Under the pieces are notes generated by a model. The model saw nothing but the letters and a program-made list of their open reading frames with translations, searched no databases and was not told the DNA's origin. The position numbers and the translations under genes were made by a program. From assembly GCA_019308745.1 (NCBI GenBank), contig JAFDHO010000009.1:1-64000 (forward strand): a DNA stretch of 64,000 nucleotides. Reading direction: 5' to 3'. The stretch is from Deltaproteobacteria bacterium. GTDB taxonomy: Bacteria; Desulfobacterota; DSM-4660; Desulfatiglandales; HGW-15. Shown here one piece after another: positions 5,429-53,953 of the stretch; the first letter of the stretch is position 1, and each line of letters begins with the position of its first letter.

Positions 5429-6826
5429 ATGAATCTCATCGTGATTTGCATAGACAGCCTGAGAAAAGACCACCTCGGATGTTTCAGCAACCCCTGGATC
5501 ATGACACCCAATTTCGATCGCTTTTACGAAAATTCTATTGTCTTCGAAAATTTCAAAATGAACGGCATACCAACCATCCCTTTTAGGCGGGGAATGATGC
5601 TCGGCAGAAAGATCTTCCCCTTCAAGGACACTGTCCACATACCCGGGGTCAGCAAGATACTCGGATGGCAACCTCTCTCCCACGACGAAGTTACCTTCCA
5701 GGAGATTCTCAATAAAGCCGGCTATGTCACCGGGATGATTACGGACGTGTGGCACTATTTCTGGCCCGCCTACAACTTCCACAGGGGGTTCGACTCCTGG
5801 CAGTTTATCAGGGGGCACGAGGCCGATCCTTACATGACAGGGGAATCTTTCATTGATCCCGACCAGTTCGTAAATCAGGACCTTGAAGGTACCAAGGTGA
5901 AGGCCTTCCTCGAACAATACATTCGCAACTTCGGCAACCGTTCTTCTGAGGAGGACTACTTCTCGCCTCGAGTATTCAGAACAGCAGAGCGGTGGCTCGA
6001 AAAAAATGCGAGGTACTATGAGAACTTCTACCTTTATATCGATTGCTTTGATCCCCACGAGCCATGGGACCCCCCCAGGGAGTACAGGGAGCTCTACGAT
6101 CCGGGTTACAGGGGCAAAGAGATCATTTTTCCCATGAACGGGTACAACGAATACCTGACGCAAGAGGAAATCAGGCATATCCGGGCCCTGTATGCCGGCA
6201 AAGTGACCATGGTTGACCGGTGGTTCGGACATTTTATGGAGAAATTTCACATCATGGGGTTGGACAAGGATACGGCTGTCCTGCTTTTGTCCGACCATGG
6301 CGTCGGGCTGGGCGAACATGGGATTTTCAAGAAGACACCCGCGGTCCTCTATCCGGAGCTACTGGAGGTCCCCATGATGCTGATGATGCCAAAGGGATCC
6401 CGGGAAAAGAGACCTGTCAAAGGGTTCGTCCAGGAATACGATATCGCCCCAACCCTTCTCAAACTCCTTGGTATTGAGATACCTGAGTCCATGAACGGGA
6501 TTGATCTGTGGCCTCTGATCAAGGGAGAAGTGACTTCCCAGAGGGAATACGTCGTTGGGGGCTTCCACACCCACGCCTATCTTCGAGATCAGAGGTACCA
6601 CTACTTCCGCAGCTTGAAGGAAGGGGAAGAGGAGCCCCAGCTCTTTGACCTTGAGAAGGATCCTGGGATGGAGCGCAACATTGCGAAGAAAGACACCCAA
6701 TTGGTTCGCATCATGGAAGAGAGGCTCCTCGAGGAGCTGGATGGATGGCGCTTGCCAGAAATGATCGGGAAGAGCGTGGCCCAGCTGCCCTATGAACCGC
6801 TCGGGAAGAGGAGAAGCCAAACATAG
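5429..6826 (+). CDS. sulfatase-like alkaline-phosphatase-superfamily hydrolase
   Basis: The 465-residue protein has the sulfatase/phosphonate-hydrolase fold. Metal ligands are visible at CIDSLRKDHLG (residues 7-17) and LSDHGVGLGEHG near 289. The usual nucleophile box C/S-x-P-x-R reads T-I-P-F-R with Thr49, so formylglycine formation is not possible by the normal rule. Thr nucleophiles occur in phosphoglycerol transferases of the same superfamily. No signal peptide is visible, so it is probably cytosolic. GAAGGAGG sits well placed before the ATG. I assign no substrate. It could be a phosphodiesterase, phosphatase or phosphotransferase. Confidence 0.85.
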   Translation: MNLIVICIDSLRKDHLGCFSNPWIMTPNFDRFYENSIVFENFKMNGIPTIPFRRGMMLGRKIFPFKDTVHIPGVSKILGWQPLSHDEVTFQEILNKAGYVTGMITDVWHYFWPAYNFHRGFDSWQFIRGHEADPYMTGESFIDPDQFVNQDLEGTKVKAFLEQYIRNFGNRSSEEDYFSPRVFRTAERWLEKNARYYENFYLYIDCFDPHEPWDPPREYRELYDPGYRGKEIIFPMNGYNEYLTQEEIRHIRALYAGKVTMVDRWFGHFMEKFHIMGLDKDTAVLLLSDHGVGLGEHGIFKKTPAVLYPELLEVPMMLMMPKGSREKRPVKGFVQEYDIAPTLLKLLGIEIPESMNGIDLWPLIKGEVTSQREYVVGGFHTHAYLRDQRYHYFRSLKEGEEEPQLFDLEKDPGMERNIAKKDTQLVRIMEERLLEELDGWRLPEMIGKSVAQLPYEPLGKRRSQT

Positions 6827-38914: not shown

Positions 38915-39394
38915 ATGAGTCGGGAATTGAGCAAAAAGGCACAGGTGGTGCAGGAGGCCCTCAGGGAATTCGGGCTTTCCTGCGAAGTGGTCCAATTACC
39001 TGATTCCACGAGGACCGCGAAAGAGGCGGCCCAGGCCATTGGATGCTCTGTCGATCAGATAGCAAAGTCCATTGTGTTCAAGGGCATACAGACCGGTAGG
39101 CCATACTTGGTCGTCGCCAGGGGGACCAAGAGGGTGGACGAAAGAAAACTGGAGGCAATTGTTCGAGAGCCTGTGGAAAAGGCCGATGCTGATTTCGTGC
39201 GCAGGGAGACAGGCTTTGCCATCGGCGGTGTCCCTCCATTAGGCCACACGAAAAAGATAGACACCTTCATCGATGAAGGCCTGAGCCAGCATGAGAGTTT
39301 GTGGGCGGCTGCGGGCACCCCTCATGCTGTCTTTAAGCTTACCCCGGAAGACTTGTCCAGGATCACCTCCGGGCTGATTGTCAAGATAAGCTAG
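38915..39394 (+). CDS. ybaK: YbaK/EbsC-family aminoacyl-tRNA deacylase-like protein
   Basis: The 159-residue protein shows the YbaK/ProX core: IAKSIVFKG with the conserved Lys near residue 51, AIGGVPPLGH near 105, and AAAGTPHAVFKL near 133. The family clears misacylated Cys- or Ala-tRNA-Pro and similar errors. Its 3' end overlaps the gpmI 3' end by four bases (convergent). Which mischarged tRNA it acts on is not decided by sequence. Confidence 0.88.
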   Translation: MSRELSKKAQVVQEALREFGLSCEVVQLPDSTRTAKEAAQAIGCSVDQIAKSIVFKGIQTGRPYLVVARGTKRVDERKLEAIVREPVEKADADFVRRETGFAIGGVPPLGHTKKIDTFIDEGLSQHESLWAAAGTPHAVFKLTPEDLSRITSGLIVKIS

Positions 39395-41031
39395 GTGCTG
39401 CCTGCCATCCTGATCAGAGACGGGTCATAGTCTTCGGGCTTTTCGTAGCCCAGGAGGTTCAAGAGTGTGGCAGCTACGTTTGAAAGGCCGGGCCTTTCCA
39501 CCGGGGCCATCTCGTATTCCCGGTTATACCCTGGATCGAATATCGCAAAGGGCACCGGATTCAAAGAGTGGGCGGTCCTTACCTTTCTGTTGCCCCCGTT
39601 ATCGTAGGTAAACATGAGATCCGCGTTGCCGTGATCCGAGGTCACGACGGCAATCCCTCCCAATTCCTCCGTGACCTTCAGGAGATCCCCTACACATCGG
39701 TCAACCGTCTCCACGGCGACTATTGCCGCCTCCATAACTCCCGTATGCCCGACCATGTCCCCGTTGGCGAAGTTCAAGCGACCGAACCGGTAACTCCTTT
39801 CTTCGAGCAGCCCTATTGTCCTTTTTGTTATTTCAGGTGCCTTCATTGCGGGCGCCCTGTCGAATTCTATCTTGTCTGAAGGAATCTCTATATAGGTCTC
39901 CAGATTTTCATCAATATAACCGGACCTGTTGCCGTTCCAAAAGTAGGTAACATGCCCAAATTTCTGCGTCTCGGATATGGCGAACATCTCCACCGCTTCA
40001 CTGCAAAGATATTCGCTTATGGTCCTGTCGATGGCCGGAGGATGAACAAGGTAATTAGGAGGGATGTGCAAATCCCCGTCGTACTCCATAATCCCCGCAT
40101 ACAGGATATCAGGAAGCGGTCCCCTGTCGAACTCGCTAAAATCCTTTTCACTGAAGGCCCTGGATATTTCAATGGCCCTGTCCCCCCTGAAATTGAAACA
40201 AATCACCGCATCCCCGTCCAATACGGGGCCTATGGGATTCCCTCTGCCATCTACTACCACAAAGGCATCGAGATATTGATCCGTCACAGCCGGACCTTCC
40301 TCATAGAAAACCCTTATGGCCTCGGAGGCCGAGGAAAAGGGCCTCGCTTTACCCAGGACATGGGCTTCCCACCCTCTCTTTACGATGGACCAATCTGCAT
40401 TGTATCTGTCCATCGTAACCTTCATGCGGCCTCCCCCTGAGGCGATGGCATAGTCCAGTCCCCTTTCCTTTGATATTTTCTTGAGCTTTTTTTCCGTGGG
40501 AATGACATATCTCAATGCAGTACGTTCTCCCACATCTCTCCCATCCAATAGGGCATGCACCCTTACCCTTTTTATACTCGTCTCCGCGCACCTGTCCAAG
40601 AAGGCAAAGAGGTGGTCGATATGAGAGTGGACATTCCCGTCAGACAGGAGCCCCAGAAAATGAATCGTCCCTCCCTCCTCGCCCCTTTGAACGATCCTTT
40701 TCCACAGATCTGTCTCGAAGATCTCTCCCTTTTCAATAGCCCTGTTTACGAGCCTGGCGCCCTGGTCAAACACCCTGCCCGCTCCGAGGGCATTGTGTCC
40801 CACCTCGCTATTCCCCATGTCCTGGTCAGTGGGCAGGCCAACGGCCGTTCCGTGGGCCTGGAGTTGTGTGTAAAACCTCGATCCCGTCAACCGGTCGATG
40901 TTGGGGGTCCTTGCCAGGTACACGGCATTCCTTTCATCCTGGGGACCCACTCCAATGCCGTCCATGATAATGAGTAGTAAGGGGCCCTTTCTTCCTTCAA
41001 AGCTTCCAAGTTTCTTCAGGCTAAGTTGCAC
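39391..41031 (-). CDS. gpmI: 2,3-bisphosphoglycerate-independent phosphoglycerate mutase
   Basis: The 546-residue glycolytic enzyme has the alkaline-phosphatase-like metal site: IIMDGIGVGP near residue 22, catalytic Ser in DMGNSEVGHNALGAG near 74, and VVTSDHGNADLM near 465. It interconverts 3- and 2-phosphoglycerate. The start is a GTG at 41031 with AAGGAG eight bases before it. It is about 30 residues longer than E. coli GpmI because of a short N-terminal extension and inserts. Confidence 0.95.
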   Translation of the reverse strand: MQLSLKKLGSFEGRKGPLLLIIMDGIGVGPQDERNAVYLARTPNIDRLTGSRFYTQLQAHGTAVGLPTDQDMGNSEVGHNALGAGRVFDQGARLVNRAIEKGEIFETDLWKRIVQRGEEGGTIHFLGLLSDGNVHSHIDHLFAFLDRCAETSIKRVRVHALLDGRDVGERTALRYVIPTEKKLKKISKERGLDYAIASGGGRMKVTMDRYNADWSIVKRGWEAHVLGKARPFSSASEAIRVFYEEGPAVTDQYLDAFVVVDGRGNPIGPVLDGDAVICFNFRGDRAIEISRAFSEKDFSEFDRGPLPDILYAGIMEYDGDLHIPPNYLVHPPAIDRTISEYLCSEAVEMFAISETQKFGHVTYFWNGNRSGYIDENLETYIEIPSDKIEFDRAPAMKAPEITKRTIGLLEERSYRFGRLNFANGDMVGHTGVMEAAIVAVETVDRCVGDLLKVTEELGGIAVVTSDHGNADLMFTYDNGGNRKVRTAHSLNPVPFAIFDPGYNREYEMAPVERPGLSNVAATLLNLLGYEKPEDYDPSLIRMAGST

Positions 41032-41110: not shown

Positions 41111-42262
41111 TCACTTTTGGCAAGGATTCGGAAAGGTTTCAGAATAGTGGCTCAGTTTTCTTAGGTTCTCGTTGCTTACCCCAATACCCAGACCGGAGCC
41201 CCCCAGAGGCCCGGCTTCCCCCCCGGGCCCGAAGGAGACGTCTTCTAAAGTTATGTTTTCCCTAAGCAGAAATCGGTCATAGGAGCCGTCATAGTAGAGG
41301 GAATCCCTGCACAGGAGAGAAAGGGCCCTTCCCGCAGCAGAAAGAAGGCCTGACTCCCCCAGTTGGCAGGCTATCTGGAAGACAATCCCCTGTTCCCGGA
41401 GATACTCTATTATCCTCAGGGACCTCCGGAAGCCGCCGCATTTGGATAGTCTGACATTGATCATATCGTAATGGCCTTCAGCCACAAGATCTTTGACATC
41501 TTCCAGGGTGCAGGCAGACTCATCGGCCATGAGCTTGACATTCAACTCCTTAAGGATGTTCGAGAAATCGCTTAGCCCTTGGTCTCCAGGCACCATAGGC
41601 TGTTCCACTACCCTTATATTGTACTCTTCAATAAGGGGAATATGGCTAAGGGAAAGGCCCAGGTCCCACGCCCCGTTCACGTCTATCTTGAGGTCGCAAC
41701 CCCTTTCAAAAACATCAACTATCACTTTAAGCATCTCACTATTTTTCTTGAAATCCCGATCCATTTTCAGTTTTATCCTTGTGATTCCCAGCCCCTTGAT
41801 GAACTCGGCTATCTCAAGGATCTGATCCCTCCCACCCAGGGGCATGGCAGCACCGTAAAAGATCTTTTCTGTGAAATGGCCGAGGGGAAAGTACTCGATG
41901 ATAGGTTTCCCCTCCTTCTTCCCGAGGGCGTCCAGCAGGGACATCTCCACAGCACAGAGGGCTGCATTACGTTCTCGGCCCTCCGGGACACTATCCACAA
42001 ACTCCCATACCTGTGATATGTCCTCCAGATCCCAGGGGAAATGGGGGTGGGCCAGGAACAACTTGATGCTCTCGATTGAACTCTCCTGGGTTTCGCCCGT
42101 GACGTAGGGCCTTGGGGCCCCTTCGCCGTAACCGGTCACGCCTCCGTTTCCGAGAATTTCGACGATTGTATTCTCTGCTATCGTCCCGCTCTTCAGTGCA
42201 TGGGGAAAGGCCTGCAAGAACGGCAAAGAAACATGATAAAGGTTTACTCTGTCGACTCTCAT
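41111..42262 (-). CDS. enolase-superfamily enzyme (muconate cycloisomerase/dipeptide epimerase group)
   Basis: The 383-residue protein has the two-lysine MLE-subgroup active site: KLKM near residue 175, metal ligands Asp in IDVNGAW near 200, Glu in VVEQP near 227 and Asp in MADES near 253, and the second Lys in RLSKCGG near 279. Possible activities include Ala-Glu dipeptide epimerase and o-succinylbenzoate synthase. No menaquinone or murein-recycling genes are adjacent to decide. No ribosome site is visible, and it follows the kinase gene after 12 bases, so it may be translationally coupled. Confidence 0.85.
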   Translation of the reverse strand: MRVDRVNLYHVSLPFLQAFPHALKSGTIAENTIVEILGNGGVTGYGEGAPRPYVTGETQESSIESIKLFLAHPHFPWDLEDISQVWEFVDSVPEGRERNAALCAVEMSLLDALGKKEGKPIIEYFPLGHFTEKIFYGAAMPLGGRDQILEIAEFIKGLGITRIKLKMDRDFKKNSEMLKVIVDVFERGCDLKIDVNGAWDLGLSLSHIPLIEEYNIRVVEQPMVPGDQGLSDFSNILKELNVKLMADESACTLEDVKDLVAEGHYDMINVRLSKCGGFRRSLRIIEYLREQGIVFQIACQLGESGLLSAAGRALSLLCRDSLYYDGSYDRFLLRENITLEDVSFGPGGEAGPLGGSGLGIGVSNENLRKLSHYSETFPNPCQK

Positions 42263-42274
42263 AGCGGGGTATTT

Positions 42275-44221
42275 CTAATGTCGTGCCATCGGGGAACCGA
42301 CTGCGGGGTCAAAGGGGATATTCAGTACAAAGGTGGTGCCTTCATTGACCTTGCTCTTCACTTCGATAGTGCCACCGTGGTCACGTATATTCTGGTATGC
42401 GATGAAGAGCCCCAGGCCGGTACCGTTATGAAGGCTGCTCTTGTGCTTCGTTGTGAAGTAGGGATCAAAGATCTTGTCAATGTTGGATTCCTCTATGCCC
42501 GGCCCTGTATCCCTGATTTCTATTATCACTCCTTGACGCTTACCCTCCCTTTCGATTCCCCTCGTCACGATTTCAATTTCCCCCCCCTCCGGGGTAAACT
42601 CTACCGCATTCGAGAGGAGGTTGATGATTACTTGCTTCATCTTTTCAGCATCCAGCCAGACCTTCCCGAACCTGGGATCAAACTTCCTTAGAATGCTTAT
42701 CTTTTTTGCGTTACTTTGAGGGGAAAGGAGCAGGATCATCCTATCAATCAGGCTATGGAGGTCATTGTATTCAAAGTGGGACTCCTTTGTCTTCACCAGA
42801 TCAAGCAATTCAGTAATGAGATTATTAACCCTTTCGGTCTCCTCCATCGCAATCTTGTAAAAGTCATTTCTGAACTCCTCATCGTCGTATTTCGCAGGAA
42901 GAAGCTGAATGAAGGTCCCTATTGCCGTCATGGGGTTCTTTATCTCGTGGGCGAGCCTTGCCGCCAGATTGCCCAGAAAGGAGAACTTCTCCGCCCTGCT
43001 CAAAAGGGTCTGGGATTCCTTGAGCTCCAGCATCTGCTCTTTAAGCCTGCTGTATAGCTTGGCGTTCTCGATGGCAATTGCGATCTGGGGTGCAAATATG
43101 TCCAAGGTCTCCCTCGTCTCCTTGGGAACCCCTTTACCATGGACCGCGTCTGTCGCGAGAACGCCTATGACCTTGGACCTCGTGATCAAAGGGACCACGT
43201 AGGCCGAGGCCGGCTGGCCGTAGACCAGCATGATGTTTCCCTTTCGGAGCCTCGAGCTCTCAATGTCCGGAACATATTCCGACTTGCCCGTATTGGTTAC
43301 CCTGACCAGCAGATTGCTTACTCGCTCCAGGGGAATTTTGTAGTTTCTTATGGCCTCCGGAACTCCTCCCTCAAAACCGACCCCGTAGAGGTACTGGAGG
43401 CACTGCTCTTCCTCCTTGACCAGCATGATCAAGGCGCGATTAATCTCGCACACGTTGGAGAGGAGGTTCATAATAGACTTCATTAACTGATCCAACTCCA
43501 GGATGGACAGTATGGCCTTTCCCGTCTCCTGGATTGCCGTTACCTGCTTGATCTTCCTGTCAAGCTCCTGGTTCAAGCGATTGACTTCTTCATATTTCTG
43601 CTCGATGATCTCTTTGTCGTCCTCCATCTCCTTGATGATTTCCATGAGGACGGCCTTTGACCCAAAGAACCTGGAGAAGACCTCGTGGAACCGAAAACAG
43701 CAATTCTCTGTCAGCTTCAAGGGTTTTCCCCCCCATATGATAGGCATGTACGTGTAGGAGCCTTGGTTCATGAGACACAGATGCTTTGAGACCTTCATGT
43801 TCCCGTCCCAGTGAAGCCTCACGAGGGCCTCATTCTTTTCTATTTCGACCAGATCGACTCTCTTATTTCTATTGTAAGTGTCATTTATCTTCTGGGCGTG
43901 CTTGAGGGCGTTTTTGTAAGACCAGAACGCCTTGACCAGGATTCGCTGGGTATAGCCCAGAGATGTGTTTTCGATGGCGTGCCTGGCAATTTTGTAGGCA
44001 ATTGTCTTATCGTTGAAGAGGAGGCTCGCCCTTTCATACAATTCTGAGGCCAGGGCACAGGAAATCCAGTTGTTGGGGTCCCTCAAGAATTGTTCGGGTT
44101 CGGGTAAGTCATCGATTTCAGGATGGAGGTCCTTCAGCAGGGATGAACAATCACCGTTGTTGTGTTCTCTGACATAGTCCAGTATTGCCCGTGAATTGAT
44201 GCAGCTTACTTCCTTTTCCAT
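42275..44221 (-). CDS. GAF-domain sensor histidine kinase with unassigned N-terminal domain
   Basis: The 648-residue cytosolic kinase has a GAF domain at about residues 245-400, a HisKA domain with the phospho-acceptor His in LAHEIKNPMTAIG near 423, and an HATPase with NLLSNAVEFTPEGG, DTGPGIEESNIDKIF and GTGLGLFIA. Residues 1-190 form a conserved-looking, Cys/Trp/His-containing domain (PNNWISCALASELYERA, LVRLHWDGNMKVSKHLCLMNQGS, ENCCFRFHEVF) I cannot name. No membrane helix is seen. Its likely partner is the sigma-54 response regulator at 47494, by proximity only. Confidence 0.9.
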   Translation of the reverse strand: MEKEVSCINSRAILDYVREHNNGDCSSLLKDLHPEIDDLPEPEQFLRDPNNWISCALASELYERASLLFNDKTIAYKIARHAIENTSLGYTQRILVKAFWSYKNALKHAQKINDTYNRNKRVDLVEIEKNEALVRLHWDGNMKVSKHLCLMNQGSYTYMPIIWGGKPLKLTENCCFRFHEVFSRFFGSKAVLMEIIKEMEDDKEIIEQKYEEVNRLNQELDRKIKQVTAIQETGKAILSILELDQLMKSIMNLLSNVCEINRALIMLVKEEEQCLQYLYGVGFEGGVPEAIRNYKIPLERVSNLLVRVTNTGKSEYVPDIESSRLRKGNIMLVYGQPASAYVVPLITRSKVIGVLATDAVHGKGVPKETRETLDIFAPQIAIAIENAKLYSRLKEQMLELKESQTLLSRAEKFSFLGNLAARLAHEIKNPMTAIGTFIQLLPAKYDDEEFRNDFYKIAMEETERVNNLITELLDLVKTKESHFEYNDLHSLIDRMILLLSPQSNAKKISILRKFDPRFGKVWLDAEKMKQVIINLLSNAVEFTPEGGEIEIVTRGIEREGKRQGVIIEIRDTGPGIEESNIDKIFDPYFTTKHKSSLHNGTGLGLFIAYQNIRDHGGTIEVKSKVNEGTTFVLNIPFDPAVGSPMARH

Positions 44222-44259
44222 GGCCTATGCCCTCCAAAAGAAGTTGTTCCAAGCTCGCC

Positions 44260-45798
44260 TTATATGTCCAGCTGCCGTATACTTCTCTCTCCGGCCATCA
44301 ACTTCTTGTATTTTGCAGTGAGTGCCGGGACTGCCTCCCTGAAGGCTCTCAGACTTCCGCTCCTTGCGTCAAACACCCCCCTTCCGGTCCCTCTGTAGCA
44401 GCACTCTGGAATCGAAGCATCTTTCAGTGACTTCGCAGGCAAACGAAAAAAAGGCATCATATTCAAGATTTCACCTTGAAGTCTTTCGGTGGGATTGGAT
44501 AGATGAAAAATTTCTTCCATGTACGCTAAGATCTTTTCGAAATCGAGATCTCTTGATGTCCGGGTGACCACGTTATCGCTGAAGACCCCATTGTCATGAA
44601 AGATCACATCGGGCAAGGATTTGGCAAACTTATATAACTTTGTCTTGGGGTAGACCCTGCACTCCCCTATCTTGAACACATATCCGCCGGGCCCTTTGAT
44701 CCTCGAAAGCTCTCTAACGAATTGGAGGCTTTCCTCCAAATCCTTTTCGGTGTCCCCCGGATAGCCGGCTATCATGAAAATCATAATGGGAATGTCGTTT
44801 CTTACGGCCTCCTCGAAGACCCTGACCGTATTTCCCACATATTTTGCATAATGGGACCGGTCTTTGACCTTGTTCATCCGCTTCAATGTGTCAAAGCTCG
44901 CTGATTCAAAACCAAGGGCAATCATGCCGACTGCGTTTGAGATCTCCGGAATGATAGAGGGATCCATCACGTCACTGCGAGTCTCGAAGTTTACCTTTAA
45001 CCCTAGCGAGCGCAGCATTGGAAACAGGTGAAAAGACCGAAACAGGGCGTCGCTGACCATGAGTGTTTTCGCATTACTTGCTTTTGAAAGCCTCCCCAAA
45101 TCCTCTCTAACCACTTCAGAGGGAACTTCCCTCCGAATTGGCCGGATAAACTCCTCCATGCAAAAATTACATTGATAGGGACAGCCCCTGCTGAAGGAAT
45201 AAGGCAAAATATCATAGGCCATAGGATATTTTAATAGCCCCAAATCCATCGGTGCCTTGGTGCTCAAGTCAACTCTGACCGGTTGCCTGTTTGCGTGAAT
45301 CTCCCCGCCTCGCCTGTAGGCAGTATTAGGAATCTCTTCTCCGAGGGGGTCGCCTCCCTTTTCCAGGATCGAGACAATCCTAAGCGCCCCGGGCTCCCCT
45401 TCTCCTAGCACAATGATATCTACCGCAGAGGTCCTCGAAAGCAATTCCTCATAGTAGAGGGTCGGGAAATAACCCCCCATGAAGACAAAGATATTCGGAT
45501 CCGCAGCCTTAATGGCCTCGCTCAGGTGGATGGCTTCCTCCGCCTGGGATATAGCCGTGCAAGATATTCCGACACCCGATGGCTTCATTGACTGGACATC
45601 TTCCAGAAACGAGGCGTAAATCTCTTCCTTCCCTTTCTGGTCAAGAGGCAACCCGTAATCCACGGGGATAGAAATGATCTTGATATCTAAGCCGGGGAGG
45701 TGGGACTTGATATAGCTGCCTATCTCCAGGATGGGCAGGGGGTAGGCAGGTATATACATATCGATGTTCTTTGATATTGGCTCCACCAGAAGGATCAT
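44260..45798 (-). CDS. B12-binding-domain radical SAM protein
   Basis: The 512-residue protein has an N-terminal cobalamin-binding-like Rossmann domain (residues 1-150, MGGYFPTLYYEELL and VLGEGEPGAL) and a radical SAM core with the iron-sulfur motif CPYQCNFC near residue 213. SAM-binding segments include ALGFESASFDTLKRMNK. The DxHxxG cobalamin motif is not evident, so B12 may not bind. The substrate is unknown; related proteins act in lipid, hopanoid or antibiotic modification. It lies between the acyltransferase and kinase genes on the same strand, so a role in lipid modification is a guess. Confidence 0.85.
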   Translation of the reverse strand: MILLVEPISKNIDMYIPAYPLPILEIGSYIKSHLPGLDIKIISIPVDYGLPLDQKGKEEIYASFLEDVQSMKPSGVGISCTAISQAEEAIHLSEAIKAADPNIFVFMGGYFPTLYYEELLSRTSAVDIIVLGEGEPGALRIVSILEKGGDPLGEEIPNTAYRRGGEIHANRQPVRVDLSTKAPMDLGLLKYPMAYDILPYSFSRGCPYQCNFCMEEFIRPIRREVPSEVVREDLGRLSKASNAKTLMVSDALFRSFHLFPMLRSLGLKVNFETRSDVMDPSIIPEISNAVGMIALGFESASFDTLKRMNKVKDRSHYAKYVGNTVRVFEEAVRNDIPIMIFMIAGYPGDTEKDLEESLQFVRELSRIKGPGGYVFKIGECRVYPKTKLYKFAKSLPDVIFHDNGVFSDNVVTRTSRDLDFEKILAYMEEIFHLSNPTERLQGEILNMMPFFRLPAKSLKDASIPECCYRGTGRGVFDARSGSLRAFREAVPALTAKYKKLMAGERSIRQLDI

Positions 45799-45956
45799 GG
45801 GATGAGTTCCAAATCAATTGTTCGGTTAACGATGATCAAGTATCTTATGAAAAAAATGGGATATGTCAAAAAGATTTGTCTGTCTATGTTCAAACTCCAG
45901 GGCGCCTCCCTCTGGCAAAGGCCTGCGCACAAACCTCTTCCGGGCCCGGCCGAGAA

Positions 45957-46934
45957 CTAGACTGCATTGTCATTAAAGGCCGCCCTTGGCAGAGAGACGC
46001 CTGCCCTGAACATCTTTCTATCTAAGGCAGACGTGGCTCGCATCTGAGCAAAGTTATTCCACTGATACCATGCCTCGGGGTGAATGTAAATGAGTTTTTC
46101 GAAGTACTTCAGGATGGCGACCCCGACAGAATAGGACCTCTTTCCCAGACTTTGAAGGATTCCTTCATAATCATTGAGGAGCAACTCGTAGTCATCCAAG
46201 CTGGCCCTGTGCAAGAGGCCAAAAAGTACGACCGCGCCCGCCCTTTTTTGGATAAGGTTGATCGTCCTGTCAACGCCCACCCTCTTTTTCAGAAAGGAGA
46301 TGGTCTCCTTTTTAGATGGCCTCCACTCTTCAATTTCATCACACTCAAAAAACACGATTCGATTGTGTCTTAGTTCCCTGATGATCTTGTTCAATATGTG
46401 TGTCTCTTCCCTCGCATCGATAATCCTTAACCCCAGGTCCTTTGTCTTCAAGTAAAGGCTCTCCTTGAGCTCTCTGGTGGAAAACTTTGCTATGACCGAA
46501 ATGGGATATCCCTCAAGGGCAAGGAACATGGGGATATATTCTATCCCTCCGTAGTGGCCCGTCACAAAAAGCACGCCCCTCCCCTTGGAAAGGCCCCTAT
46601 CAAGCTTTTCAAGGCCTCCCCTCGTCCTTATGCTGGTCCTGAAAAACCCCTTCAACGCCTCCAAGTCCTCATAGGCGTTGAAGAGCTTTTCGTAGTAGTG
46701 GGCCAATATGCCCTGAAATACGCCTCTCTTAAGTTTGTCTATTTCAGATTTGTCCTTTCCCTCCTTGAAAACCTCCTCAACACATTCTTCGATCCTTTCT
46801 TTCTCTCTTCTATTCACCAAGTAGTAAAGGCTTCCAAGTATCAGGACATACCGGTAGGTCAATCTCCAGCCCAACTTCCGGTAGAGAAGAACATTTAGTC
46901 TCCATTGCAAAAAAGCACTCAGCTTCACCCTCAT
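45957..46934 (-). CDS. LpxL/HtrB-like lysophospholipid acyltransferase
   Basis: The 325-residue protein belongs to the LpxL/LpxM-like acyltransferases. The catalytic H-x4-E motif is GHYGGIEY near residue 123, after a membrane-associated N-terminus. It probably transfers a fatty acyl chain to a lipid A-like or other glycolipid acceptor at the inner membrane. A good sigma-54 promoter lies about 80 bases upstream, so expression is probably conditional. It lacks the company of other lipid A genes. Confidence 0.8.
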   Translation of the reverse strand: MRVKLSAFLQWRLNVLLYRKLGWRLTYRYVLILGSLYYLVNRREKERIEECVEEVFKEGKDKSEIDKLKRGVFQGILAHYYEKLFNAYEDLEALKGFFRTSIRTRGGLEKLDRGLSKGRGVLFVTGHYGGIEYIPMFLALEGYPISVIAKFSTRELKESLYLKTKDLGLRIIDAREETHILNKIIRELRHNRIVFFECDEIEEWRPSKKETISFLKKRVGVDRTINLIQKRAGAVVLFGLLHRASLDDYELLLNDYEGILQSLGKRSYSVGVAILKYFEKLIYIHPEAWYQWNNFAQMRATSALDRKMFRAGVSLPRAAFNDNAV

Positions 46935-47014
46935 TTCAAGGCGGTCCCTTTTCTGTTACCTGGTTTACCCCCCCTGTTATTACTAGATGGCTTCTATTTC
47001 CAAATTATGTCATA

Positions 47015-47030
47015 TGCCATTTTCGTGCCA
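47015..47030 (-). promoter_or_regulatory. sigma-54 promoter of the acyltransferase gene
   Basis: The minus strand reads TGGCACGAAAATGGCA. It has GG at -24 and GC at -12 with the required ten-base spacing, and an exact TGGCACG upstream half. It predicts transcription starting near 47003, about 70 bases before the coding start. Confidence 0.75.
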
Positions 47031-47157
47031 ACTTTACTTTTTTCAATATTGCCTTGGGTATACCGTAAGATGGCACTATCATTTAGCCTAACTTACTAAT
47101 ATTGCATAACTAATATCACCATCAAATTTGCGGCTTTCCCTCGTTCATGAATTCATC

Positions 47158-47186
47158 TTGGAATGGCACCATGAGGGGCTTTCCAA
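47158..47186. promoter_or_regulatory. dyad, candidate activator site
   Basis: TTGGAA and TTCCAA form an inverted repeat with a 17-base spacer. The site is about 130-170 bases upstream of the sigma-54 promoter, a normal distance for an enhancer-binding protein. Confidence 0.35.
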
Positions 47187-47493
47187 ACTTAGTCAAATCT
47201 TTCAAAATTTGCACAAAATTCTGCCAATTTTCGTCATTTTCTGGGAGGTGAGCCAAATACTACAGAGACGGGAAATGATCAGAATGCTTGACCTGGAATG
47301 TATTATGTGTTGATATACACCCACGCGCTGATTCGTCCTCAGCGGCTTCTACCCAACAGGCGTTATTCTCTCAACATATTGATTTCTGGGAAAAACACTG
47401 TTTCGAGCTCGGTATACTCTCTTCTGCCTCCTCCCTGCGGGTTCCCTGACCTTGGGGGTGGTGGATGAGGGCCCATGGAATAGAGAAAGCCCC

Positions 47494-48837
47494 ATGCATG
47501 ACAAGCCCACCATTCTCGTCGTAGATGATGAACCCGGAGTCCGCCAGTCATTTAACATCGTCCTGAAGGACAAATATAAGGTCTTCCTCGCCGGCACAGG
47601 GGAAGAGGCTATTGATCTCCTGAGCAGGAAGTCCATTGGCCTGGCCCTCCTGGATATCAGGCTCCCGGACCTGGACGGGATCGAACTCCTTGGAAAGCTC
47701 AAGGAAATTGACCCCAACTGTGAAATCATCATGGTCACGGCCGTCAAGGAGATAAAGACCGCGGTCAAGGCCATAAAACTGGGGGCCTATGAATACATAC
47801 TAAAACCTTTCTCCGTAGAGGAAGTGCTCAATACCATCAAGAGGGCCTTGGAAAAGCATGAGCTCGAAAAGGAGGTGACCTATCTCAGAAATGAGCTTCA
47901 GCGCTATCAGCCATTTGAGGAGATCGTGGGTCAGGACAAGAAAATGCAGGAGGTCTTCGGGATTGTATCCAGTATTGCCGACAGTGATGGTGCCGTGCTC
48001 ATCCAAGGGGAAAGCGGGACAGGGAAAGAACTTGTGGCACGGGCCATACACAATCTGAGTCTCAGAAAGATCTACCCCTTTGTGGTAGTCAATTGTGCGG
48101 CCATTCCCCCGAATCTGATGGAGAGCGCCCTCTTCGGCTACCACAAAGGTGCCTTCACAGGGGCTGTGGCCACCACCCTGGGCAAACTCGAGATCGCAAA
48201 CAGGGGCACCGTGTTCCTTGATGACATCGATACCCTGGATATCAACATGCAGGCAAAGCTCCTCAGGGCGATCCAGGAAAAAGAGTTCGAAAGGCTGGGG
48301 GGTACCAAGACCATCACCGTTAATGTCAGGTTTATTGCCGCCTCGAACAAGGATCTCACGAGACTGATAGAGGAAGGGAGGTTCAGAGAAGACCTTTACT
48401 ACCGCCTCAATGTCTTTCCCGTAACCCTACCCCCTTTGCGAGAAAGGAAAAAAGACATCCCTCTCTTACTGGATCATTTTCTGAGGCTCAATGCAAAGAA
48501 CACTGGGAAGCCACTCAAGAGATTCTCCAAGAGTGCCATAAAAACCCTTATGGAATATGATTGGCCGGGAAATGTACGGGAGCTTCAAAACCTGGTGGAG
48601 AGATCCTTCACCATATCCAGAAATCCCGTCATTCACCTTGACGATATTGCTCCCTACAGGAGAAAGCGAGCGGACTTCAAAGAGATGACATTGAAGGAGG
48701 CAGTTGCTGACTTTGAACGGAGATACGTAAACGAGGTGTTGGAGCTAGTCAACGGCAACAAGAAGAAGGCGGCAGAAATCCTCGCAGTTCACCGAAACAC
48801 CCTCTCCGCCAAGATGGATTCCACTAAACCCAAGTAG
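47494..48837 (+). CDS. sigma-54-dependent response regulator (NtrC family)
   Basis: The 447-residue activator has a receiver domain with phospho-acceptor Asp in LLDIRLPDLDG. The AAA+ domain has Walker A GESGTGKE, the sigma-54 contact loop KGAFTGA and the RFREDLYYRLNVFPV segment. A Fis-type helix-turn-helix ends the protein (NGNKKKAAEILAVHRNTLSAKM). I use ATG 47494 rather than the TTG start of the track. It is divergent from the acyltransferase gene, whose promoter is a sigma-54 type, which makes that gene the obvious candidate target. Confidence 0.93.
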   Translation: MHDKPTILVVDDEPGVRQSFNIVLKDKYKVFLAGTGEEAIDLLSRKSIGLALLDIRLPDLDGIELLGKLKEIDPNCEIIMVTAVKEIKTAVKAIKLGAYEYILKPFSVEEVLNTIKRALEKHELEKEVTYLRNELQRYQPFEEIVGQDKKMQEVFGIVSSIADSDGAVLIQGESGTGKELVARAIHNLSLRKIYPFVVVNCAAIPPNLMESALFGYHKGAFTGAVATTLGKLEIANRGTVFLDDIDTLDINMQAKLLRAIQEKEFERLGGTKTITVNVRFIAASNKDLTRLIEEGRFREDLYYRLNVFPVTLPPLRERKKDIPLLLDHFLRLNAKNTGKPLKRFSKSAIKTLMEYDWPGNVRELQNLVERSFTISRNPVIHLDDIAPYRRKRADFKEMTLKEAVADFERRYVNEVLELVNGNKKKAAEILAVHRNTLSAKMDSTKPK

Positions 48838-48891
48838 TCTGTCCGACCCTCCTCTCAGACGCGAGAGGTTCCACCATCCCGGACCGGGTCA

Positions 48892-49587
48892 TCAAATCCC
48901 GCAGGTCCTTCTGACGTCCTCATTCTCCATGAGCTCTTCGACCTTGCCCTCGTAACATATCCTCCCGTTATCGATGATATAGCCGTAATCGCTCAAAGAC
49001 AGAGTGAACTTGACATTTTGCTCCGCAATGAGGACGGTCAATCCGGTCTCCTTTAGACTGGTCGTTGTCTCCCCCAGGGACTTGACCAGGGCCGGAGCGA
49101 GACCCTCCGTGGGCTCGTCCAGCAGAAGGAAGTCCGGATTGCCCATCAGGGCACGGCCGATTGCGAGCATCTTCTGCTCGCCTCCGCTGAGAAGCCCTCC
49201 CCTTCGTGATTCCATCCCCTTCAGGGCGGGGAAGAGTTCGTAGACCCTTTCCTTGTCCCACAGGTCCCTCCCTTCGGATCTCCTCGCAGCGATTTCCAGG
49301 TTCTCCCCCACGGTCAAATCTGCAAAGATCCTCCTGTCGTCCGGAACATAACCGATTCCCCGCCGCACGAGCCTGAAGGGTTCCTCTCCAGTGACATCTT
49401 TATTCTTGAACCTGATCCTTCCGGCCTTCGGAGGAGCGAGTCCGAGAATACTCTTGAGGGTGGTCGTCTTGCCCGCCCCGTTACGCCCCAGCAGGCAAAC
49501 CATCTGGCGGGACTCCACCTTCAGCGACACCCCGAAGAGGATATGGCTCAGGCCATAGAAGGTGTGGATGGACTCGACTTCAAGCAT
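48892..49587 (-). CDS. livF: branched-chain amino-acid ABC transporter ATPase LivF
   Basis: The 231-residue ATPase has Walker A GRNGAGKTTT, signature LSGGEQKMLAIGRAL, Walker B FLLLDEPTEGLAP, and the LivF trait of ending near the H-loop-type LIAEQNVKF. It is the last gene of livKHMGF and overlaps livG by eight bases; GGGGGAG precedes the ATG. It drives import together with LivG. Confidence 0.95.
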   Translation of the reverse strand: MLEVESIHTFYGLSHILFGVSLKVESRQMVCLLGRNGAGKTTTLKSILGLAPPKAGRIRFKNKDVTGEEPFRLVRRGIGYVPDDRRIFADLTVGENLEIAARRSEGRDLWDKERVYELFPALKGMESRRGGLLSGGEQKMLAIGRALMGNPDFLLLDEPTEGLAPALVKSLGETTTSLKETGLTVLIAEQNVKFTLSLSDYGYIIDNGRICYEGKVEELMENEDVRRTCGI

Positions 49588-50320
49588 AATCTCCCCCTAA
49601 GTAAGCCTCCTGGACGGCCTGGTTTTGCCTTACCTTCTCGGGTGAATCCTGAACCAGGGTCCTCCCGTGGTGCATCACCATTATGCTCTGTGCCACATTG
49701 AAGACCACATCCATGTCGTGCTCGCAGAACAGGACCGTGAGACCCTCCTTCTCGGCAAGCTGCTTTATGAGCCCCATGGTCGCCGTCGTCTCCTCGGGAG
49801 ACATGCCAGCTGTGGGTTCGTCCAGGATCAACATCTTCGGCCTGTTGCCGAGGGCTATGGCTATTTCAAGGATCCTTTGATCCCCGTGAGACAAGGAGCC
49901 TGCGGTGTAGGCGGCCTTGTCCAGAATCCCGACGCTCTTCAAGATCCTGTTCGTCTCTTGGATTGCCATCCTCCCGGAAAACCGGAAGAGTTTCCGGCTC
50001 ATCTGCCTTTGAGACAGAACCGATACCTGGACATTCCTGAACACGGACAGTCGATGGAAGATATTGGCGATCTGGAAGGACCTGGCAATCCCCCTCCTGC
50101 AAATCCTGTAGGCGGGCAGCCTGGTGATATCCACATTGTCAAAGATTATCCTGCCCTTTTCCGGCCTGAGCTGTCCGGTAATCAAGTTAAAGAGGGTGGT
50201 CTTTCCCGCCCCGTTCGGCCCGATGACCGCCACCAATTCTCCTTCCTTGACGCTTAGGCTTGCACCGTCAACTGCCTTGAAATCATCAAAGGACTTGTGG
50301 ACGCCCTCAACCTGTAGCAT
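49580..50320 (-). CDS. livG: branched-chain amino-acid ABC transporter ATPase LivG
   Basis: The 246-residue ATPase has Walker A GPNGAGKTTLFN, LSHGDQRILEIAIAL (a LivG-type variant signature), Walker B MLILDEPTAGMSPEE and H-loop FCEHDMDVVF. The ATG at 50320 has GGAG nine bases upstream, and the gene overlaps the livM end by 14 bases. Confidence 0.95.
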   Translation of the reverse strand: MLQVEGVHKSFDDFKAVDGASLSVKEGELVAVIGPNGAGKTTLFNLITGQLRPEKGRIIFDNVDITRLPAYRICRRGIARSFQIANIFHRLSVFRNVQVSVLSQRQMSRKLFRFSGRMAIQETNRILKSVGILDKAAYTAGSLSHGDQRILEIAIALGNRPKMLILDEPTAGMSPEETTATMGLIKQLAEKEGLTVLFCEHDMDVVFNVAQSIMVMHHGRTLVQDSPEKVRQNQAVQEAYLGGDYA

Positions 50321-51278
50321 CAATCTCTTCTCCTGTGATCTTCTCTTCCCCCAGGTGCAATTTTTCCAATAGGAAACCCATCACCCCCTCAGGCAGGAAG
50401 AAAATCAGCAAAATGAGGATTATCCCCAATATGAGGGTCCAGTACTCGGTGTATGTCCCTACAAACGTGCGGAGAGCGACTGTTATGGCTGCCCCGAGTA
50501 TGGGCCCCGCAAAGGTGAACCAGCCCCCCAGGAGGCACATGATAAGAACTTCCAGGGAGAGGACCCAGAAAAGGAGGTCCGGGAATACGGATCGCTCCAA
50601 GATGACGAAAAGGACCCCGGCCACCCCTGCGAAAAAAGCAGCTATGACGATGGCCAAGAGCCTGTGTTGTTTGACATTGATGCCCACCGCCTCGCACCTC
50701 TCGGGATTGTCCCGTATGGCCTGGAGGGTGGTCCCAAAGGGTGATTCCAGAATCACGTACATGAGCCCAAGGCAAACCGCCATGACTATCAAGACAAAAT
50801 AATAAGAACTGCTCAGGGAACTCAGGAAATCAGGCACGGGTATGCCGTGGATACCATCGTCGCCGCCTGTGAGGCTGTACCACCGGAAGGCGATCGCCCA
50901 AATGAGCGACCCCAAGGATATCTGCAGCATGCCGAAATAAAGTCTTGACAGCCTCACACAAAACCATCCTATGAGAAAGCCCGCCAGGGCCGCCACGAGG
51001 GGAGCAACCACAAATGCAATCCACGAGGGTAATGAGGTCTTCGCTTGAATCAATGCAAAACAATAGGCACCCACCCCGTAAAACACGGCATGATGAAACT
51101 GGTACAAACCCCCGTAACCGACGACAAGATTGAGACTCATGGCAAGCAAGGCAGTAATCAAGATGATGGCCGTCAAATAGGTATAGAACTTAATGACAAG
51201 AAACGGCAGAATAAGGAGGAGCAATAGGATGGGTATGGAGAGCACCTGGGGCCTTCTTTTGAGGACTCTTGCTAACAA
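50307..51278 (-). CDS. livM: branched-chain amino-acid ABC transporter permease LivM
   Basis: The 323-residue permease has about nine membrane helices and the family segments LNLVVGYGGLYQFHHAVFYGVGAY, QAIRDNPERCEAVGINV and LEVLIMCLLGGWFTFAGPILGA. It starts with TTG at 51278, with AAAGGA eight bases upstream, and lies 15 bases after livH. Confidence 0.94.
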   Translation of the reverse strand: MLARVLKRRPQVLSIPILLLLLILPFLVIKFYTYLTAIILITALLAMSLNLVVGYGGLYQFHHAVFYGVGAYCFALIQAKTSLPSWIAFVVAPLVAALAGFLIGWFCVRLSRLYFGMLQISLGSLIWAIAFRWYSLTGGDDGIHGIPVPDFLSSLSSSYYFVLIVMAVCLGLMYVILESPFGTTLQAIRDNPERCEAVGINVKQHRLLAIVIAAFFAGVAGVLFVILERSVFPDLLFWVLSLEVLIMCLLGGWFTFAGPILGAAITVALRTFVGTYTEYWTLILGIILILLIFFLPEGVMGFLLEKLHLGEEKITGEEIDATG

Positions 51279-51293
51279 GGTCGAATTCCTTTC

Positions 51294-52190
51294 TTACCAA
51301 ACCGATTTCAACATTCCCTTGGGCCTTATCAAGAGCACGATAACAACGGCCATATAAGGGAAGACGATTGCAAATTGGGGCCAAAAGAGGACACCAAAAG
51401 ATTGTGTCAAGCCGAATATGAGAGAACCCACCATGGCCCCCCACATATTGCCGAGCCCCCCTATTGTTACTATGAGAAACGCTTCGATGATAATGTTATG
51501 ATCCATCCCGATGGTGATGCTTATGGTGGGTGCAACGAGGGCTCCTCCCAGGCCTGCCAGAAAACACCCGATCACAAAGGCAAAGGCAAAGACCCAGCTG
51601 ACATTTATGCCTATGGCATTCACCATTTCCATATCGACTGCCGCTGCCCTTGAAATCTTGCCTATCTTTGTCTTGTTGGTAAATAACCAGAGTCCCGCGG
51701 CCGCGGCCGGACCAATGATCAACAGGAAGAGATTGTACCTGGGAAATGATGACCCAAATATTGATATGGAGCCCCTCAGGAACTCAGGCGCCATGATTGA
51801 CCTGTATTCGGCACCCCAGACGATCTTCACCAGGTCACCGAAAATCAGCATTAGGGCAAAGGTGAAGAGCAGGAGCATCAGGTGCTCCCTCTGGTACAGA
51901 TGGCAAAACAAAAGCCTCTCGGTCACAAGACTGACGGCCGCTACCATACAAGGCGCAAGAACCAGTGAAAGCCAGAAACCGGTCGCGCCCCCGCCCAGCA
52001 TCTTGGACATGCTGAAGGCCAAAAAGGCCCCCAGCATGTAGAGGGAGCCATGGGCCACATTGGGTACCCTGAGTACGCCCAGAACAAAGCTGAGCCCTGA
52101 TGAGACAATGAAGAGGATCATTGCCCTGCTCAGCCCCACGAAGAAATGACTGCCTAACGCTGCTAAGGTAACTCCGGCACCCGCTTCCAT
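51294..52190 (-). CDS. livH: branched-chain amino-acid ABC transporter permease LivH
   Basis: The roughly 298-residue permease has about eight helices and typical LivH features: VPNVAHGSLYMLGAFLAF, RAAAVDMEMVNAIGINV and TIGGLGNMWGAMVGSLIFG. I start at ATG 52190, preceded by AAAGGAG; the TTG start at 52265 in the track would enclose that ribosome site. A gap of about 190 bases separates it from livK. Confidence 0.93.
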   Translation of the reverse strand: MEAGAGVTLAALGSHFFVGLSRAMILFIVSSGLSFVLGVLRVPNVAHGSLYMLGAFLAFSMSKMLGGGATGFWLSLVLAPCMVAAVSLVTERLLFCHLYQREHLMLLLFTFALMLIFGDLVKIVWGAEYRSIMAPEFLRGSISIFGSSFPRYNLFLLIIGPAAAAGLWLFTNKTKIGKISRAAAVDMEMVNAIGINVSWVFAFAFVIGCFLAGLGGALVAPTISITIGMDHNIIIEAFLIVTIGGLGNMWGAMVGSLIFGLTQSFGVLFWPQFAIVFPYMAVVIVLLIRPKGMLKSVW

Positions 52191-52381
52191 TGAAAAGATC
52201 TCCTTTGATCGCTGAGTACTTCCCTGATCATGGAAGAAAGCATCCCTGTCAAAAAACTCCTGCAAGAAGCTCCCAAAAGGTCGCTCTCGCCAGGAACGGT
52301 CTCATGGGAGCTTTAAGGTCATAACAACCTTTACTGCTCCATCTGTTTCCACGGGCCCAGGCCTACCCACTATCTTCCATC

Positions 52382-53620
52382 CTACTTTCTTGACCTGGCC
52401 TCTCTGATTTCATCGCAGGAAGGCATAACGTCATCTCCCGTGAGGGTGATAATGTCGCTGGCAGTCAAGAAATCATACTGGGGCGTCTTCTTGGTAACAC
52501 CCATGAAGATGGGCAAAACAGCTTGATGATCACAGGCCCTCATTTCTATCTCACCGGCAGGGCTGTCTATCCTGAGTCCCTCCAGGGCGTCAATAAACTT
52601 CTCCTTGTCCACAGAGCCCGCCTTCCTGAACGCTTCTGCTATTAGATGTGCCGTAATATAACCGTGAAAACCCGAGAACCCTGGAGGGGCTCCATATTCC
52701 GCTTGAAAGGCACTGGCAAATCCCCTGTTGGCCGGCGTATCAGGGTAATAGAAAAGGTAGTCGCTGGTTCCCATGACGCCCTCAGGGGCCCCGGGACCGA
52801 GTGCCCTGAGAATGGAAGTCTCTGTGGCCGTGTGGACCCAGGCCTGGACTTTGCTTGTAAGGCCCGTGGCCTTGGCTGTCTTCATGACGTTTACCATGCT
52901 TGCCCCGCCGGTGCAAAATATCACCGCATCGGGCTTAGCAGCCAGGATGGCCGTGATATAGGGAACCAGGTCAGGCTCCCCTATTTTCCACCAGGACTGT
53001 CCGAGCAATTGAACATTCGGTTTGAGCTTCTTCAGGTTTCGCCATGCCGCGTCTGCTATGGCGTGGCCGTATTCATAGTCATCCCCGGCTATCCAATACT
53101 TGGTGAAGGGCTTCTTGGCGAGGGCAACACCGCCCGCCTTACCAAACATGGCTGTGTTCTCACTCGTGGAAAAGACATACCTGTGCCCCTTTTGCCCGGT
53201 AATCCTCTCGCTCTTGGCGATCCAAACGATCAGGGGCACCTTTTCCCTCCTAGCATAGTCAGAGACAGCAAGGGCAACGCTACTGCTGATAACACCAACC
53301 AGCACATCCACGCCTTCCCTCATTATCAATTCCTTGGCGACGCTGAGTCCAATGTCGACCTTGAATTTCGTGTCTCGCGTGGTATATTCGATCTTCCTTC
53401 CGAGAACCCCTTTCTCGTTAATCCCCTTGAGGGCGAGCTTGAAACCGTTCAGCGCCTCTTTACAAAACATGGCAGGTGGCCCGCTGTAGGTGTCGATAAT
53501 CCCGACCTTGATATTCCGGGCCTTTGCCTCTAAGGGTGGAATAGCCACAAAAGCGATAAACAGGGCCAAGACACAAACCACAAGCTTCAAATGGACATTA
53601 ATCTTTGCGCTGCTAGACAT
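52382..53620 (-). CDS. livK: ABC transporter substrate-binding protein, LivK/Peripla_BP_6 family
   Basis: The 412-residue periplasmic protein has a signal peptide (LKLVVCVLALFIAFVAIPPLEAKA) and a type I periplasmic-binding fold (IKVGIIDTYSGPPAMFCKEALNG, VDVLVGVISSSVALAV, KYWIAGDDYEYGHA). It feeds LivHMGF. The ligand may be a branched-chain amino acid, amide or aromatic acid; the pocket is not readable by eye. ATG 53620 follows AGGGAGGG. A strong promoter lies at 53789. Confidence 0.92.
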   Translation of the reverse strand: MSSSAKINVHLKLVVCVLALFIAFVAIPPLEAKARNIKVGIIDTYSGPPAMFCKEALNGFKLALKGINEKGVLGRKIEYTTRDTKFKVDIGLSVAKELIMREGVDVLVGVISSSVALAVSDYARREKVPLIVWIAKSERITGQKGHRYVFSTSENTAMFGKAGGVALAKKPFTKYWIAGDDYEYGHAIADAAWRNLKKLKPNVQLLGQSWWKIGEPDLVPYITAILAAKPDAVIFCTGGASMVNVMKTAKATGLTSKVQAWVHTATETSILRALGPGAPEGVMGTSDYLFYYPDTPANRGFASAFQAEYGAPPGFSGFHGYITAHLIAEAFRKAGSVDKEKFIDALEGLRIDSPAGEIEMRACDHQAVLPIFMGVTKKTPQYDFLTASDIITLTGDDVMPSCDEIREARSRK

Positions 53621-53953
53621 TTTTATCCCTCCCTTGGTCAAAAAAGTTAATGTTAGAGAAACTAATAGGTTCTGCGAAACGGTGTCCTACGGGTGCTTCT
53701 CAGTCCAAAATGGTTAATGCTCTAAAGGATGGCCCTAATTGTGATAGGTTATTCGAGAATACCGGTTTCCCGGGAATTATCGTTCGCAAGTATAGGGGAA
53801 ACAACTTAGCGTGTCAATTCCCATCTGAAGGCCCCTGAAAAACCCCCGTAACATATTCCCGTTGACAAGCTCTCCTTAAACTGGTAGGGGCCTTTGTTGG
53901 TTCATGACAGGATGAAGAGATGAGTCCTTTACGGGGGAGGTCCAAGAGACAAA
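53621..53953. other. divergent promoter region, liv operon and M24 gene
   Basis: This 333-base gap holds the liv promoter. A TTGACA near 53873 on the plus strand lacks a good -10 at the right distance. No gene is seen. Confidence 0.5.
53789..53817 (-). promoter_or_regulatory. sigma-70 promoter of the liv operon
   Basis: Minus strand TTGACA, exactly 17 bases, TATACT. This is one of the best sigma-70 matches in the window, with a predicted leader of about 160 bases before livK. Confidence 0.8.

Follow-up and report, generated by a model that had tools for sequence, protein, structure and literature searches.

The PrsK/PrsR pair of the PEP-CTERM regulon consists of a kinase and a Fis-type sigma-54 response regulator, and a dispersed upstream motif together with a sigma-54 site stands before the exported proteins. 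Motif 1 of PrsR has 17 nt, ends with TTTACA and lies at a mean distance of 63 nt before the promoter (PMC1569441, PMC9850573). In Desulfovibrio vulgaris, the response regulator DVU2934 has lpxC as its one target (PMC3333781), and one lipid A operon is listed among the sigma-54 operons (PMC4641369).

The locus described here shares with PrsK/PrsR both the pairing of proteins and the arrangement of a dispersed motif and a sigma-54 site before exported proteins. However, the motif is a tandem TGCACA-N6-TGTGCA palindrome, mostly at about 200 bases from the promoter. PrsK is a transmembrane protein, whereas in the kinase here (HK) no membrane domain was recognised and the sensor domain is predicted to be H-NOX-like. 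The response regulator (RR) also falls short of the PrsR cut-off (424 vs 502.6 bits). As in the DVU2934-lpxC case (PMC3333781, PMC4641369), a response regulator with a kinase from the same operon would target a lipid A gene. The target of DVU2934 is a deacetylase and is single, whereas here an LpxL-like acyltransferase (AT) seems to belong to a multi-operon regulon. The first-pass annotation had called sigma-54 control of lipid acyltransferases uncommon; lpxC and the listed lipid A operon provide a near precedent.

RR resembles the NtrC and AtoC-ZraR activators in its domain order, GAFTGA motif and Fis-type HTH, but it scores under all of their NCBIfam cut-offs and has its own enhancer and partners. 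AT shares with the lipid A acyltransferases LpxL and LpxM (PDB 5kn7) the Pfam family, the invariant HX4E pair and a profile match (E 1.3e-4); it is, however, a distant relative, and its lipid A acylation is only putative. The literature searched contained no description of this regulon; the regulon, its enhancer and its two kinds of promoter appear to be new. For an understudied class of sediment sulfate-reducer relatives, they supply a predicted regulator of large exported RHS proteins, together with a candidate binding site and a list of targets.

The regulator and the acyltransferase operon

The window, which means the whole stretch of 64,000 nucleotides analysed, is part of a 5.06-Mb draft genome (contig C115). 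The region 46935-47493 lies between AT and the divergent RR, in the following surroundings.

39391..41031, minus strand: BPG-independent phosphoglycerate mutase, a neighbour of the module in several relatives and an uncertain member of the operon
41111..42262, minus strand: enolase-superfamily (MR_MLE) protein, a conserved module member
42275..44221, minus strand: sensor histidine kinase HK, with a predicted H-NOX-like N-terminal domain, GAF, HisKA and HATPase
44260..45798, minus strand: B12-binding radical SAM protein (rSAM), second module gene, missing in some relatives
45957..46934, minus strand: AT, LpxL/LpxM-like acyltransferase, first operon gene, with H127 and E132 (HX4E)
47494..48837, plus strand: RR, NtrC-family sigma-54 activator divergent from AT, with receiver, AAA+ with GAFTGA, and Fis-type HTH

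AT passes the gathering cut-off of Lip_A_acyltrans (PF03279; 26.6 vs 22.3 bits), and its H127/E132 pair is invariant across 16 homologues. Another match in the same genome (C394) is only 22% identical.

RR starts with the ATG at 47494. It combines a receiver with a sigma-54 AAA+ domain and a Fis-HTH domain, and it has the GAFTGA motif that had been noted for the divergent activator. With a threshold of E <= 1e-135, 31 of the 85 genomes of the class have RR, with one orthologue per genome. The identity of these orthologues is 55-70%, and that of the closest own-genome paralogue by score is 47%; about 25 other sigma-54 activators are present in this genome. RR is below the curated NCBIfam cut-offs for NtrC, AtoC and PrsR: it gives 416.2 bits with the NtrC model (TIGR01818; cut-off 558.6) and 424.4 bits with the PrsR model (TIGR02915; cut-off 502.6), the latter being its second best NCBIfam match.

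AT heads an operon with its own kinase and probably lies within a larger regulon, both of which the first-pass annotation overlooked. The kinase in this operon is probably the partner of RR.

The promoter in front of AT

47015..47030, minus strand: sigma-54 (-24/-12) promoter TGGCACGAAAATGGCA, facing AT and conserved in orthologous intergenic regions

The AT start codon (46934) is 80 bases downstream of TGGCACGAAAATGGCA. This site is spaced as GG-N10-GC, departs from TGGCAC-N5-TTGCW at one position and ranks best among the 27 matches of that pattern in the window. Dinucleotide shuffling of the 562-base region yields TGGCAC-N5-KKGC by chance in 0.5% of cases, and TGGCACGNNNNTKGCA occurs three times in the whole 5.06-Mb genome (reversed control, 0). 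An rpoN gene was found in the same genome.

TGGCAY-N5-TTG is directed toward AT in 19 of the 27 orthologous RR-AT intergenic regions (shuffles: mean 0.2, maximum 1). The window is among the eight regions that lack this match; the -12 box of its promoter is TGGCA, unlike that of the family. No regulator-facing sigma-54 site is recognisable in the window intergenic region. The AT-facing sigma-54 promoter is, as judged from these patterns and as had been claimed, real and well placed for AT.

The tandem palindrome and its decayed copy

The ancestral enhancer is a TGCACA-N6-TGTGCA palindrome, usually in two copies 21-22 bases apart. A perfect palindrome is present in 18 of the 27 RR-AT intergenic regions (shuffles, 0). 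In regions that have both elements, the distance from the start of the proximal palindrome to the -24 element is mostly 194-210 bases, with extremes of 109 and 358.

47210..47227, no strand: decayed enhancer half/palindrome TGCACAAAATTCTGCCAA, best intergenic PWM match (consensus TGCACA-N6-TGTGCA)

One half of TGCACAAAATTCTGCCAA is perfect and the other is degenerate, and the site is 197 bases from the -24 element. With the PWM, which was built from 99 sites, it scores 5.2 against a median of 27.8 for known sites, and it is the fourth best match in the 64-kb window. No palindrome within two mismatches is present in the window intergenic region. Since TGCACAAAATTCTGCCAA is the best intergenic match, has a perfect half and keeps its distance from the promoter, the enhancer seems to be decayed but in place.

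Possible IHF sites between enhancer and promoter were also considered, and the counts (3 of 50, vs 1.0 in mononucleotide shuffles) were too weak for a claim. No Rfam element was found in 44000-49000.

Unlinked candidate targets

In the same genome, tandem palindromes are present on contigs C141, C180, C187, C260, C273 (twice), C288, C339 and C117 (reversed control, 0). They are perfect or have one mismatch; the second copy has two mismatches on C141, C180, C339 and C117. TGGCAY-N5-TTG follows every one of them except that on C288, which is at a contig end, which gives eight loci besides the window. A search of this genome with an enhancer half and a sigma-54 site at fixed spacing matched only such loci (control, 0).

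RHS-repeat exported proteins with a common N-terminal domain are encoded downstream of the enhancer on C339, C117 and C180 (partial). On C273 (L032; 215-1177 and 1780-2160), a perfect tandem enhancer and a sigma-54 site are followed by a lone receiver and then by a second AT (51% identical). The other own-genome candidate targets are a PilZ protein, an FHA-GAF protein and a nucleotide cyclase. On C187 (L142), the sigma-54 site at 5617 is followed by the gene of an exported cysteine-containing protein, whose reading frame is broken by an in-frame TGA.

In relatives, the candidate targets are proteins of the TIG/RHS and SpvB/RHS types, PilZ and HDOD proteins, PAS/GAF kinases and a cyclase, and in one relative the gspC-D-E-F type II secretion genes stand behind a tandem enhancer with a sigma-54 site. 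In genome G016 (contig C22, L153), a NifH-like gene lies behind a sigma-54-like site that has a tandem enhancer; this arrangement may represent an overlap with nitrogen control.

Most unlinked targets have at least one perfect palindrome, whereas the window AT enhancer has one good half-site. On this basis, control of the AT operon in this species is probably weaker or tuned in a special way.

Tandem enhancers were found in 23 of the 85 genomes. RR is present in 19 of these 23 (including G041, in which it is split over two contigs) and in 14 of the 62 genomes without a tandem (Fisher p = 7e-7, which overstates independence because the genomes are related). The four tandem-enhancer genomes without RR are 64-84% complete. 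In addition, 18 of the 66 tandem enhancers lie within 600 bases of the RR gene, on either side; we estimate the chance expectation at about 0.04.

Two kinds of promoter

The sigma-54 promoters are of two kinds: those facing AT or export genes have TTGA or TTGT at -12 and a distance of about 200 bases, and those facing the regulator or signalling genes have TTGC and 68-152 bases. Enhancer-proximal promoters (68-130 bases) have TTGC in 14 of 17 cases, and distant ones have a base other than C in 44 of 54 (p = 3e-6). At six loci, one enhancer pair lies between opposed promoters, of which the regulator-facing one has TTGC at 119-152 bases and the AT-facing one TTGA or TTGT at 194-205 bases. The systematic difference in the -12 base between these opposed promoters makes its role at natural promoters directly testable.

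The sensor region of the kinase

The first 240 residues of HK were modelled with a pLDDT of 80 and a pTM of 0.66. The best 21 PDB matches of this model (Foldseek) are 20 H-NOX proteins and one soluble guanylate cyclase. The top H-NOX matches have a probability score of 1.00, a best E of 2.8e-3 and TM-scores of about 0.4-0.6. The HNOB profile matched neither the kinase sensor nor anything else in this genome, and a profile of the kinase sensor matched no PDB sequence. Because the match is in the fold only, with these E and TM values and no sequence profile, the predicted H-NOX-like fold is regarded as a lead.

It should be mentioned that the window kinase lacks a 17-residue YCEYH segment after residue 176, which is present in some form in 38 of 38 aligned relatives. 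This absence, together with the weak enhancer, may reflect a drifting module or a quirk of the assembly.

Proposed mechanism and alternative explanations

Judged by the conservation of promoter, enhancer, spacing, module and regulon, the intergenic region probably serves to control a two-component regulon that depends on sigma-54 and covers the AT operon and unlinked targets. From this we infer a phosphorelay, binding and activation by RR, a signal and an acyl acceptor. HK would perceive the signal through its H-NOX-like domain and phosphorylate the divergent RR. Bound to the tandem TGCACA-N6-TGTGCA palindromes, RR would then activate sigma-54 polymerase at TGGCAY-N5-TTG promoters through looping of the DNA. 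Its targets would be the AT-radicalSAM-HK-enolase operon and, in some relatives, its own gene. They would also include unlinked operons that encode RHS-repeat exported proteins or signalling proteins and, in one relative, type II secretion. Tentatively, this might be a class-specific regulon in which a gas/redox-type (H-NOX-like) kinase is coupled to RHS export and lipid acylation, and in which one and the same tandem enhancer serves targets sorted by promoter design (near, with the canonical -12 TTGC, toward regulator and signalling genes vs TTGA/T at about 200 bases toward AT and export genes) for an ordered or graded response.

The first-pass annotation had placed the enhancer of this species in a TTGGAA/TTCCAA dyad. 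The dyad does exist upstream of the promoter (47158-47163 and 47181-47186; 128-156 bases), but its role as an enhancer is highly improbable and was rejected: six-base inverted repeats, counted with a spacer of at most 30, are no more frequent in the region than in shuffles (4 vs a mean of 4.9), the dyad is absent from every orthologous RR-AT intergenic region, and the HTH core HRNTL of the regulator is conserved. The likely regulator site is 30-50 bases further upstream. Control by the divergent NtrC-type regulator, as originally proposed, is supported by the conserved promoter, enhancer and gene order. It is rather unlikely that a housekeeping promoter mainly drives the AT operon here and that the sigma-54 site is a relic of a circuit whose enhancer decayed. 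A sigma-70-like TTGGCA-N16-CATAAT, in which TG precedes the second hexamer, is present at 47031-47004, and both the loss of any palindrome within two mismatches and the kinase segment missing in this species would fit such a relic. However, the sigma-70-like match overlaps the -24/-12 site and uses the same bases, so it is not independent evidence. In addition, the -24 element is intact, its distance to AT is about that of several orthologues, and the surviving half-site is at the usual spacing.

The NtrC half-site TGCAC is similar to the enhancer half. The tandem enhancers might belong to another NtrC-family activator, such as NtrC, with the module RR being incidental; binding to the unlinked enhancers is conceivable for the other activators of this genome, and the G016 site precedes a NifH-like gene. 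This explanation seems improbable: 18 of the 66 tandem sites adjoin the RR gene itself, RR accompanies them in 19 of 23 genomes, the other four being incomplete, and RR is distinct from NtrC, AtoC and PrsR by the curated cut-offs. Assignment of the enhancers to RR is therefore preferred.

Distribution and origin of the module

Orthologous loci were taken from relatives and from a set of 50 named loci, which a search with the N-terminal part of the kinase had yielded. They keep the order RR, AT-(rSAM)-HK-MLE, in which AT or rSAM is sometimes missing. Most of the named carriers are MAGs of Desulfobacterales/Desulfatiglandales and of other deltaproteobacteria; strain NaphS2 is also among them.

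At seven distant loci (L097, L099-L101 and L105-L107), the AT-HK intergenic region has neither the palindrome nor TGGCAYN5TTG. The sigma-54 circuit thus looks like an addition made within the class, and an origin outside it was rejected. At six of these loci (L097, L099-L101 and L106-L107), kinase homologues (31-38%) are divergent to AT or to an AT-enolase pair, and no RR match, palindrome or TGGCAYN5TTG site was found there; this arrangement is probably the ancestral form of the module.

On the other side of RR in the window, genes of a branched-chain amino-acid type ABC transporter (48892-53641) follow in convergent orientation, and LivF/LivG adjoin RR in several relatives.
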